From Microbacterium sp. (lineage in GTDB: Bacteria > Actinomycetota > Actinomycetes > Actinomycetales > Microbacteriaceae): a DNA stretch of 64,000 nucleotides. This document shows positions 14,612 to 21,245 of this stretch, piece by piece. Made by a program: the position numbers and the translations under genes. The stretch covers positions 1-64,000 of the forward strand of contig JARBUN010000014.1 in assembly GCA_029239635.1 (NCBI GenBank). Reading direction: 5' to 3'. Below the pieces are notes generated by a model that saw only the letters and a list, made by a program, of their open reading frames with translations, searched no databases and was not told the origin of the DNA. Position 1 is the stretch's first letter. The number at the start of each line of letters is the position of its first letter.

Positions 14612-17151
14612 GGGTCACCGACCTGCACGCCACTCTCCCCCCGGCGGGCCTGCCGGGTCTCGATCCCTCCCTGTCGCGTCTCGTGGACGTCCCCGGCGCC
14701 GCGACCGACGCGGGCGCCACCCGCACATGGCACGTCCTCGACACCGGTGCCGCTCTCGCCGAGCGCGGTGTCGCGCCCGTCGGCACGATCATCGCCGTGC
14801 ACGGCAACCCGACGTGGTCGTACCTGTGGCGCGCACTCGTGAATGCGTCGCTGCAGCGCGCCGAAATCGGCGGCACCCCCTGGCGCGTCGTCGCGGTCGA
14901 CCAGCTCGAGATGGGCTTCTCGGAGCGCTCCTCGCTGCGACGCACCCTGGCTCAGCGCATCGCGGATCTCGACGCGCTCGTCGGCGAGCTCGGCATCCGG
15001 GGTCCGATCGTCACGATCGGCCACGACTGGGGCGGACCCGTCTCGCTCGGGTGGGCCGTGGAGAACCGCGATCGCCTCGCCGCCGTGATCGCCCTGAACA
15101 CCGCCGTCCACCACCCCGACGGTGCACCGCTGCCCTTCGCGCTGCGCGTCGCGACCGCGCGCGGCATGCTCGCGGCCGGGACGACCGGGACCACGGCCTT
15201 CCTCGACACCACGCTCTCCCTCGCCGACCTCGAGCCGGCCGTCCGCGCGGCGTTCCGCGCGCCCTACGCGACCGTGAGCCGCCGTCGAGGCATCGGCGGG
15301 TTCGTCGCCGATATCCCGGCCACCGCGGCCGACGAGAGCACGCCCGCTCTCCGTCGCCTGTCGGCGGGACTGCGCGAGCTCGACGTGCCCGCGTTGTTCC
15401 TCCGCGGCCCGAAGGACCCCGTGTTCGGCGAGGGGCACCTCGACGACCTCACCGAGCGCCTGCCGCACGCCGACGTCCACCGTTTCGAAGGCGCCGGGCA
15501 CCTGATCGCGGAGGAGCGGCCCTACGCGGACGTCGTGCTCGACTGGCTCGACGAGAAGGGCGTGGCGCGCGTTTCCGGAACCGCGGGTGCCGGGGCCCCG
15601 GCCTCCGCCGACGCCCCCGTGTCCGACACCGCCGACGCCGCACCGACCGGCCACCTCTGGGACGCCCTCGACGCCCGGCGCGAGGACGACGAAACCGCCG
15701 TGATCGACATGACCACCACCCGCGACGGCGCGCCGCTCCGCGTCAGCTGGCGCCGGCTGTCCGCCCGCGTCGACGAGATCGCCGCCGGCCTCGACGCCTT
15801 CGGCGTGCGCGCGGGCGACCGCGTCTCGCTGCTCGTGCAGCCCGGCCCCACCCTCACCGCCGCGCTGTACGCGTGCCTGCGCATCGGGGCGGTGGTCGTC
15901 GTGGCCGACCGGGGTCTCGGCATCCGGGGTCTGTCCCGTGCCGTGCGGGGCGCCGTTCCCGACGTCGTCATCGGCGAGGTCGCGGGTCTCCGTGGTCGTG
16001 CCCTTCCGCCGGCGCCGGCGCCCGACGCCGACGCCGCGGTGCTGTTCACCTCCGGCTCGACGGGGCCCGCGAAGGGCGTCGTCTACACGCACGCCCAGCT
16101 CACGGCCCTGCGCGACACCCTCGCGTCGCACTTCGGCGTGACGGCCGACACGGGCCTCGTCACCGGCTTCGCCCCGTTCGCTCTGCTCGGACCCGCGCTC
16201 GGCACGCGGTCGGCGACACCCGACATGGACGTCTCCGCTCCCCGCACCCTCACCGCCGCAGCGGTCGCGGCCGCCGTACGCGCCTCCGACGCCCGCATCG
16301 TGTTCCTCTCCCCCGCGGCCGTGGCCAACGTGGTCGCCACGGCCGGCGCTCTCGACGCCGACGATCGCGCGGCGCTGGCGCGCGTCGAGACGTTCCTCTC
16401 CACCGGTGCCCCGGTGTCCATCGACCTGCTGCGGCGGGCGCAAGCGCTCATGCCGAACGCGGTCGCCCATACCCCGTACGGCATGACGGAGTGCCTGCTG
16501 GTCGCCGACGTCACCCTCCCCGAGATCGAGCAGGCGGCGGGTGACCGCGGCGTCTGCGTCGGTCGACCGCTCGGCACGGGCCAGGTGCGCATCTCGGCGA
16601 TCGACGCCGAGGGACGCGCGACCGGCGAGCCGACCACCGAGGCCGGCGTGACCGGCGAGATCGTCATCTCGGCGCCCCATCTCAAGCGCGGCTACTTCCG
16701 CCTCTACCTCACCGACCGCGAGGCCCGGCGCGGCCTCCCCGCCCGCTGGCACCGCACCGGCGACGTCGGCCACCTCGACGCCGACGGACGCCTGTGGGTC
16801 GAGGGACGCCTCCCCCACGTCATCACCACCGCCGACGGCCCGGTGACCCCGGTCGGCATCGAACAGGATGCCGAGACCGTCGACGCCGTCTTCCGCGCCG
16901 CCGCCGTCGGGGTCGGTCCCGTCGGCCGACAGGTCGTCGTCGCGGTCGTCGAGGCCGGCGCGCGCCGCCCCGGCCTCGCCTCTCCCGAGCTCACGGACGC
17001 CGTCCGCGCCGCGACCGCGCAGCCGCTTGCCGCGGTCCTCGTCGCCCCGACGCTGCCGACCGACATCCGGCACAACTCCAAGATCGACCGCTCGCGCCTC
17101 GCCGCATGGGCCGACCGTCTGCTCGCGGGCGAGAAGCCGACGGTGCCATGA
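14608..17151 (+). CDS. OleBC fusion: alpha/beta hydrolase plus AMP-ligase (beta-lactone synthetase) domain
   Basis: N-terminal HGNPTWSYLWR / GHDWGG hydrolase motifs; C-terminal AVLFTSGSTGPAKGVVYTH adenylation motif. Confidence 0.9.
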   Translation: MRVTDLHATLPPAGLPGLDPSLSRLVDVPGAATDAGATRTWHVLDTGAALAERGVAPVGTIIAVHGNPTWSYLWRALVNASLQRAEIGGTPWRVVAVDQLEMGFSERSSLRRTLAQRIADLDALVGELGIRGPIVTIGHDWGGPVSLGWAVENRDRLAAVIALNTAVHHPDGAPLPFALRVATARGMLAAGTTGTTAFLDTTLSLADLEPAVRAAFRAPYATVSRRRGIGGFVADIPATAADESTPALRRLSAGLRELDVPALFLRGPKDPVFGEGHLDDLTERLPHADVHRFEGAGHLIAEERPYADVVLDWLDEKGVARVSGTAGAGAPASADAPVSDTADAAPTGHLWDALDARREDDETAVIDMTTTRDGAPLRVSWRRLSARVDEIAAGLDAFGVRAGDRVSLLVQPGPTLTAALYACLRIGAVVVVADRGLGIRGLSRAVRGAVPDVVIGEVAGLRGRALPPAPAPDADAAVLFTSGSTGPAKGVVYTHAQLTALRDTLASHFGVTADTGLVTGFAPFALLGPALGTRSATPDMDVSAPRTLTAAAVAAAVRASDARIVFLSPAAVANVVATAGALDADDRAALARVETFLSTGAPVSIDLLRRAQALMPNAVAHTPYGMTECLLVADVTLPEIEQAAGDRGVCVGRPLGTGQVRISAIDAEGRATGEPTTEAGVTGEIVISAPHLKRGYFRLYLTDREARRGLPARWHRTGDVGHLDADGRLWVEGRLPHVITTADGPVTPVGIEQDAETVDAVFRAAAVGVGPVGRQVVVAVVEAGARRPGLASPELTDAVRAATAQPLAAVLVAPTLPTDIRHNSKIDRSRLAAWADRLLAGEKPTVP

Positions 17152-18066
17152 GGGTCCTCGCGACCGGCGCATCCGGCTTCCTCGGCCGGGCCGTCGTCCG
17201 GGCCCTGCAGGACGCCGGGCACGACGTGCGCACCCTGCAGCGCCGCCCGTCGGGCGTCGACGGCGCCGAGGACCGCCTCGGTTCGGTGACGGATCCGGAT
17301 GCCGTGGCATCCGCCCTCGACGGGGTCGACGGTGTGGTGCACCTGGCTGCCAAGGTCTCGCTCGCGGGGGACCCGGCGCAGCGCCGCGACCGCCGCGGGA
17401 GTCTCGCGCGTCGTCCACGTGTCGTCGCCGTCGGTCGCGCACGCGGGTCACGCCCTCGCGGGAGTGGGCGCCGAGCCCGCCGACCCCGATGCCGCGCACG
17501 GCGAGTACGCCCGGACCAAGGCCGAGGCCGAGCTGCTCGCGCTCTCCCGCGCGGGCGAGGGTCTCGCCCTCGTCGCGATCCGACCGCACCTCGTGTGGGG
17601 CCCGGGTGACACGCAGCTCATCGCGCGCGTCGTCGACCGCGCCCGCCGGGGGCGGCTGCCGCTGCTGAACGGCGGGACGGCGCTCATCGATTCCACGTAC
17701 GTCGACAACGCGGCATCCGGGATCGTCGCCGCCCTCGACCGCGTCGACGACGTCAGCGGCCGGGCCTACGTGCTGACCAACGGCGAACCGCGCCCGGTCG
17801 GCGACCTGCTCGCCGGGATCTGCCGCGCCTCGGGGGTCGCACCACCGCGATTCAGCGTGCCCGCGGGGCTCGCGCGCGCGGCCGGCGGCCTGGTCGAGCG
17901 CGTGTGGGCCGTGCGACCGGGCGAGGACGAGCCGCCGATGACCCGGTTCCTCGCCGAGCAGCTGTCGACGGCGCACTGGTTCGACCAGACCGAGATCCGC
18001 CGTGACCTGCGCTGGACGCCGTCGGTGTCGATCGACGAGGGCCTGCGGCGCCTCGCGCGCGCCTGA
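17148..18066 (+). pseudogene. OleD-like NAD(P)-dependent reductase, apparently frameshifted by an internal deletion near 17375-17395
   Basis: Frame 1 MRVLATGASGFLGRAVVRALQ...VVHLAAKVSLAGDPAQ; continues in another frame as ATAAGVSRVVHVSSPSVAHAG...; the usual roughly 15-20 intervening residues are absent. Confidence 0.8.
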
Positions 18067-18116
18067 GTCGACGGCATCCGTCGCGCTCCCGCGCGCGTCC
18101 TTCTTCGCACGGACCA

Positions 18117-18430
18117 TGTCCCTGAAAGTGCTGCCCGCTTAGCGGCCACAACTGGGACACGGTATGGTCCACCCCCCTGTGCGGGAGGGATGCCCCAGAA
18201 GGGGCTGCTTGGCGCGCCCCCAAACAGCCGGAAGTGGGACACGGCGGGGCTCATCACCGCCCGCGTCGCCCTGTGCGGGAGGGATGTCCCAAAAGGGGCT
18301 GCTTGGCGCGGCCCCAAACAGCCGGAAGTGGGACACGGTAGGGCTCATCCCCTGTGCGCGCGCGATGTCCCCAATGAGGCTGGCCGACACGCCCCCGCAC
18401 AGCCAGAAGCGGGACACGGCCCCGGGGACA
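18117..18430. repeat. Array of about four degenerate hairpin elements with conserved TGYCCC...GGGACACGG ends
   Basis: Copies at 18117-18159, 18191-18241, 18285-18335 and 18366-18416; each has terminal TGYCCC/GGGACA and an internal inverted repeat. Confidence 0.85.
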
Positions 18431-18442
18431 GCCGCGGGACGA

Positions 18443-18478
18443 CGGAAGGCCCGCCCCCACCAGGGAACGGGCCTTCCG
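18443..18478. terminator. Hairpin downstream of katG
   Basis: CGGAAGGCCCG (18443-18453) pairs with CGGGCCTTCCG (18468-18478). Confidence 0.75.

Positions 18479-18534: not shown

Positions 18535-21245
<2,711 letters not shown>

Follow-up and report, generated by a model that had tools for sequence, protein, structure and literature searches.

A dispersed Microbacterium palindrome arrayed between an oleD-like gene and katG, and its probable AbiEi-like/nuclease partner

The 64-kb Microbacterium window (that is, the whole stretch of 64,000 nucleotides that was analysed) carries four palindromic elements between an oleD-like gene and katG. In our judgement, these elements are probably a tandem cluster of a dispersed palindrome that is bound, cut and spread by a protein in which an AbiEi-like part is fused to a nuclease. 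The reading is built on a palindrome family, on the position of its members beside the gene for this protein, on the co-occurrence and co-variation of the two, on a 21-bp lattice of half-sites, on an intergenic bias and on the absence of a Y1 transposase.

The array in the window

The array occupies a 468-bp gap in which the 3' ends of the oleD-like gene and katG face each other (Table 1). We recovered all four copies that the preliminary description had named, together with their TGYCCC and GGGACA terminal hexamers and the single mismatch in copy 2. Each of the four copies is followed directly by CGG, and the ≈ 315-bp array holds 8 of the window's 26 TGTCCC/GGGACA hexamers. A position matrix was built from ten copies located elsewhere in the genome and scored over 63,950 window positions. 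Copies 3, 2 and 4 obtained the three highest scores (z = 8.2, 7.6 and 7.0, respectively; next best 4.6), and with the inner 39 bp alone they ranked first, second and fourth. These ranks and z-scores place the array far beyond chance.

Table 1. Features of the oleD–katG region (window coordinates)
Feature	Position	Strand	Remarks
Left neighbour, oleD-like NAD(P)-dependent epimerase/reductase gene	17148..18066	+	stops short of the array
Degenerate outlying half-site CGTCCTTCTTCGCACGGACCA	18096..18116	+	direct orientation; exactly one 21-bp lattice step upstream of copy 1
Element copy 1, TGTCCC...GGGACA	18117..18159	.	43 bp, 8 bp under the 51-bp standard
Linker, 31 bp (CGGTATGGTCC...GGAGGGA)	18160..18190	.	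belongs to the tandem unit
Element copy 2, TGCCCC...GGGACA	18191..18241	.	exactly 51 bp, one terminal mismatch; matrix rank 2
Linker, 43 bp	18242..18284	.	between copies 2 and 3
Element copy 3, TGTCCC...GGGACA	18285..18335	.	exactly 51 bp; matrix rank 1
Linker, 30 bp	18336..18365	.	between copies 3 and 4
Element copy 4, TGTCCC...GGGACA	18366..18416	.	exactly 51 bp; matrix rank 3
Extra GGGACA hexamer	18425..18430	-	14 bp beyond copy 4, out of phase with the 21-bp lattice; probably due to chance or to decay of a half-site
Separate inverted repeat (CGGAAGGCCCGCCCCC...GGGAACGGGCCTTCCG)	18443..18478	.	conserved in other species next to the 3' end of katG, whose terminator it likely is; not a member of the element family
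Right neighbour, katG	18535..20958	-	converges on the array

The copy starts are 74, 94 and 81 bp apart and thus off the 21-bp lattice described below; the array may be decaying. A CRISPR, which the preliminary description had also rejected, is ruled out by the palindromic nature of the copies, their uneven spacings and the related linkers, as opposed to the unique spacers of constant size of such a locus. The outlying half-site upstream of copy 1 had been missed in that description. The frame of the oleD-like gene is shifted near 17.38 kb: its start (MRVLATGASGFLG) and its end lie in different frames and some sequence is apparently missing, so that the gene is either a pseudogene or the product of an assembly error.

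The palindrome family and its half-site lattice

The pattern TGTCCC-N39-GGGACA describes a 51-bp palindrome that is dispersed between genes in Microbacterium, often in tandem. The assembly to which the window belongs (3.57 Mb in 207 contigs, 85% complete) contained 12 exact matches and none to the reversed pattern; a pattern with a variable gap of 16–46 was not enriched in this genome (18 matches vs 17 for the reversed control). Matches occurred in 25 of the 59 Microbacterium genomes sampled, with reversed controls of 0–1 per genome. Copy number was erratic between species, from 0 to a maximum of 86, and these counts are lower bounds, since exact ends and exact length were required and several genomes use 50 bp. 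The prospect, left standing in the preliminary description, of an array without relatives elsewhere is decisively dismissed by these copies. Contigs matched in the scan were almost all from Microbacterium, and in a class-wide sample of 396 genomes clear enrichment was limited to Microbacterium and one genome of another family. The ends (TGTCCCACTT) are common to the species, and each species has an inner half-site of its own. The lattice is at its most regular in M. nanhaiense, where perfect 63-bp tandem arrays (51 + 12) reach up to 5 elements (e.g., L053:2871-3173 and L054:3877-4179).

The elements avoid coding sequence: 9% of the element clusters lay inside predicted ORFs, compared with 72% of random points. 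Gaps holding clusters were convergent in 36, tandem in 39 and divergent in 3 cases, against 77, 151 and 66 among all gaps; divergent gaps are thus avoided and placement is biased to gene 3' ends, as judged from heuristic gene calls near the elements. The oleD–katG gap itself holds three elements in the relative G006, two in G020 and G044 and one to two in G016 and G024, each with the inner half-site of its own species. The position of the elements is thus kept as their sequence turns over along with the nuclease of the genome, a case of concerted evolution. Neither a clean empty site nor a target duplication was found; the gap holds different palindromes in relatives. Other, unrelated palindromes or tandem repeats occupy it in G007, G009, G053 and G058 (L327, L325, L326 and L321, respectively), and the gap looks like a hotspot of several palindrome families.

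Half-sites (≈ 17–23 bp) are arranged on a lattice. Among 634 half-site pairs of the same orientation, 417 were 21, 42, 63, 84, 105 or 126 bp apart, compared with ≈ 29 expected from a uniform distribution; inverted pairs had outer lengths of 51, 72, 93 and 114 bp. The 21-bp step corresponds to two helical turns, and the outlying half-sites are unpaired and in direct orientation. No arm–arm compensation was detected within genomes, as complementarity was at the level obtained after shuffling the arms among copies. Each arm is therefore matched to a common half-site, without compensating the other. Folding of single copies gave mixed z-scores, from +0.15 to −4.1 (the latter for the minus strand of copy 3), and the window had no Rfam match. 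The stem covariation put forward in the preliminary description thus survives as pairing but not as compensation within genomes, and the selection it proposed for a hairpin, of RNA or of DNA, is not supported, given the equal pairing of shuffled arms, the direct half-sites at 21-bp pitch and the Rfam result. Judged by their layout, the palindrome arms read as putative double-stranded half-sites for a protein rather than as an RNA stem. The protein-binding array, one of the options listed at the outset, comes close to what was observed.

A predicted AbiEi-like/nuclease fusion gene paired with the palindrome

An all-against-all comparison of ≈ 850 ORFs around about 100 element loci singled out a gene for a ≈ 303-residue protein, usually with elements on either side. 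The genome of the window has an ortholog (C175:26810-27721, 484 bits) that sits between two palindrome copies; a 51-bp element is found at C175:27804-27854, 83 bp from the gene. In ten loci, the gene holds a conserved position between pfkA and a peptidase gene (neighbours identified by reading), and no AbiEii (DUF1814) toxin gene adjoins it.

The C-terminus of the protein gave weak Pfam matches to MTES_1575/DUF559, mostly at or below the cut-off. Its AlphaFold model resembles the catalytic domain of I-Bth0305I (3r3p; probability 0.97, TMt 0.77), with a non-significant Foldseek E-value of 0.46. All aligned proteins have the candidate nuclease residues E198, D231 and E242. The N-terminal part was modelled as residues 1–195 from 11 sequences (a full-length AlphaFold model from 8 sequences did not resolve it); the model (pLDDT 84.5) matched AbiEi (6y8q; E = 6e-4, probability 1.00) over its length and also Rv2827c (1zel). 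A profile search of PDB sequences returned no match for the protein, and PADLOC matched no system beyond AbiEi and one ZorE model, both weakly. Going by the predicted folds, the partner appears to join, in one polypeptide, a DUF559/Vsr-type PD-(D/E)XK nuclease to an AbiEi-like winged-helix part for DNA binding. The RAYT transposase first suggested as partner gave way to this fusion: PF01797 (Y1/RAYT) was absent from the genome of the window and from seven element-bearing relatives, and the positive-control genomes were matched. On plasmids, only distant homologs of the nuclease were found, with 33–36% identity, on Arthrobacter megaplasmids.

The pairing of gene and palindrome was examined at 65 loci of the nuclease family, including distant paralogs. 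The mean for matched palindromes in the flanks was 44.2, compared with 37.3 for 150 control genes, taken from Microbacterium only, and 51 of the 65 loci exceeded the 95th percentile of the controls (p = 2e-26); the same was true of 19 among the 30 loci taken from other genera and other families. The score tolerates an offset and was too insensitive without this tolerance. The more alike the proteins, the more alike the elements (Mantel p = 0.0005), and the ortholog is present in element-rich genomes (Fisher p = 2e-4, or 1e-5 when close orthologs are considered). Dispersed copies were closest to the nuclease-flanking copies of their own genome in 77 of 99 cases (≈ 7.6 by chance); M. nanhaiense contributes about half of the copies and has seven flanking references, so that its part in this count is somewhat inflated. 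Similarity of copies within a genome could come partly from tandem duplication. Three genomes (G011, G012 and G049) have 2–6 exact copies and no close ortholog. Nine genomes with a homolog of at least 290 bits have no exact 51-bp copies; the gene-adjacent copies are 50 bp in G035, G053 and G044, and most other genomes of the nine have diverged ends.

Paralogs of the nuclease carry matched palindromes of their own, with ends that differ completely between paralog families. One paralog in the genome of the window (G000:C108:41808-42698) is flanked by TGTCCA...TGGACA palindromes (TGTCCANNRCAC...GTGYNNTGGACA). This second family was predicted from the flanks of the paralog alone and was then found dispersed, with 11–58 copies, in 10 of 10 genomes with a full-length paralog (co-occurrence p = 1e-9). 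Fifteen dispersed copies are present in the genome of the window, with none in the 64-kb window, and there were no control matches in any genome. In G053, the same palindrome flanks a partial homolog. A third palindrome (CCAGTGCGGGCG...), predicted in G032, was present 11 times in that genome and absent from four others; 9 of the 11 lie within about 115 kb of the nuclease gene (G032:C1:1500947-1708385; gene at 1615332), which suggests local spreading. Clustering around the nuclease gene was rejected as a general rule, as the copies of the first family in G008 and G054 are dispersed. Every family of palindromes would seem to be tied to a single nuclease, namely the one whose gene it flanks.

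Proposed mechanism and alternatives

The sites of AbiEi consist of two 23-bp inverted repeats 3 bp apart, that is, a 49-bp site, and those of Rv2827c are tandem pairs (PMC7319586). The 51-bp palindrome would therefore fit a pair of such monomers. From homology and site layout, we infer that the fusion protein binds the palindrome, each half being a double-stranded site of ≈ 17–23 bp for one monomer. Monomers would bind cooperatively; two would face each other in the 51-bp core and further ones would line up with them on one face of the helix, spaced by 21 bp. The gene-adjacent copy probably autoregulates the nuclease gene, as AbiEi sites do. The nuclease would nick or cut at palindrome sites, and repair from another copy would spread and homogenise the palindromes, much as RAYT is thought to act on REPs but with different chemistry. 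On a wider scale, the chances seem to us evenly balanced that we are dealing with a new selfish class widespread in Actinomycetes, in which a single-copy AbiEi-like/Vsr-type nuclease gene is accompanied by a private palindrome of ≈ 50 bp that is copied intergenically and kept uniform by cutting and repair. Several nuclease–palindrome pairs of different specificity could then coexist in one genome.

Of the known systems, REP/RAYT (TnpA-REP, 'REPtrons') consists of dispersed intergenic palindromes, clustered or tandem, that flank a single-copy partner gene (PMC2817692, PMC3733652, PMC8266576). The Microbacterium elements share these traits as well as family-specific sequences, and to this extent the REP/BIME-like nature proposed in the preliminary description holds: they are dispersed, intergenic, 3'-end-biased and often tandem. 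The enzyme differs, however, being an AbiEi-like/PD-(D/E)XK nuclease instead of an HUH (Y1) transposase. REPs are 20–40 bp long with a GTAG/CGTC tag, whereas the elements are 50–51 bp with symmetric TGTCCC...GGGACA ends and no tag; and a REP is a single-stranded hairpin, whereas the elements form a double-helix lattice without arm compensation. CGTC-tagged REPs, which have no known dedicated enzyme (PMC3733652), are likewise dispersed short palindromes without a RAYT partner, but they differ in phylum, size and ends. The AbiE type IV toxin–antitoxin system shares the N-terminal fold (6y8q, 1zel) and has an operator layout that is nearly that of the 51-bp element. In contrast to AbiE, the Microbacterium protein is fused to a nuclease and lacks an AbiEii toxin neighbour, and its sites are genome-wide (up to 86 copies) instead of serving one promoter. 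The C-terminal model resembles the Vsr-fold EDxHD homing endonuclease I-Bth0305I, at the non-significant E-value given above, and the Pfam matches to DUF559/MTES_1575 nuclease domains are weak. Unlike a homing endonuclease of this fold, the Microbacterium protein has an AbiEi-like N-terminal part, and its gene is neither part of an intron or intein nor inserted in its target, but is bordered by its own palindrome.

Some of these features would also suit domesticated regulatory or architectural sites. The protein would then autoregulate and would organise or insulate the chromosome, its nuclease domain being a dimerisation remnant or acting elsewhere, and the palindromes would have spread passively by duplication or gene conversion. 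The 21-bp lattice is compatible with a cooperative filament, AbiEi-type antitoxins autoregulate from inverted repeats (PMC7319586) and the elements are located between convergent or tandem genes. This explanation is nevertheless unlikely in view of the invariant E198, D231 and E242, the erratic copy number and the private palindromes of the paralogs, which look like a self-propagating pair and not like a shared host function. We consider a role in defence or self-marking to be improbable. Here, the nuclease would attack foreign DNA while chromosomal palindromes titrate or restrain it, as might be expected from the AbiEi relationship, the nuclease domain and the occurrence of MTES_1575-type domains in conflict systems (PMC3710099). 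Yet copy number varies from a few to more than 80, the gene sits at a conserved housekeeping position outside defence islands and the PADLOC matches were limited to those given above.

Very little credence can be given to RNA-level elements, namely hairpins under selection as structured RNAs, terminators or stabilisers of mRNA 3' ends. The elements are palindromic, lie at gene 3' ends and in some cases fold well, as does copy 3 on the minus strand, but the missing compensatory pairing within genomes largely refutes such a role. In addition, half-sites stand unpaired at exact 21-bp steps, some copies have folding z-scores near zero and a T-run is lacking; the structured RNA among the options listed at the outset fails on compensation and on Rfam. 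An ordinary MITE or IS remnant, moved by a DDE transposase with TGTCCC ends, would account for the inverted ends and the dispersed copies. It is highly improbable because no transposase recurred among the element neighbours, a result that also speaks against the MITE derivative envisaged earlier, because the ends differ completely between paralog families and because the inner sequence is private to each genome. Elements of exactly 51 bp, with half-sites inside them and further boxes lying outside, do not match a terminal-inverted-repeat layout either.

REP-like palindromes are among the commonest repeats of bacteria. The only dedicated enzymes for them that we found described in the literature were HUH transposases, and an incomplete literature search yielded no report that pairs DUF559/MTES_1575 genes with cognate palindromes. 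We rate the element–enzyme pairing as categorically new, with a general logic that resembles REP systems. If the fusion-protein reading is true, there would be another enzyme class, unrelated to the first, that forms dozens of natural protein–palindrome pairs, so that this life style would have arisen more than once, and DUF559/MTES_1575–AbiEi fusion proteins, now mostly 'hypothetical', would gain a function. Since protein and half-site change together, the pairs would amount to a large natural collection from which the code of DNA recognition by AbiEi-type winged helices could be read.

A natural knock-out was noted in Microbacterium sp. BR1. An IS that encodes a transposase of the IS256 type (mutator-like) splits its nuclease gene (L174:633-2996), and 11 exact elements persist in the loci examined. 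G213, from another family of the order, carries nine TGTCCC-N39-GGGACA copies with an inner sequence like GCTATCCGGGG. The palindrome that flanks its best nuclease homolog (C4:136998) is different (GAGAAGTGGGGCACCTGA), and the nine copies therefore probably belong to another paralog.
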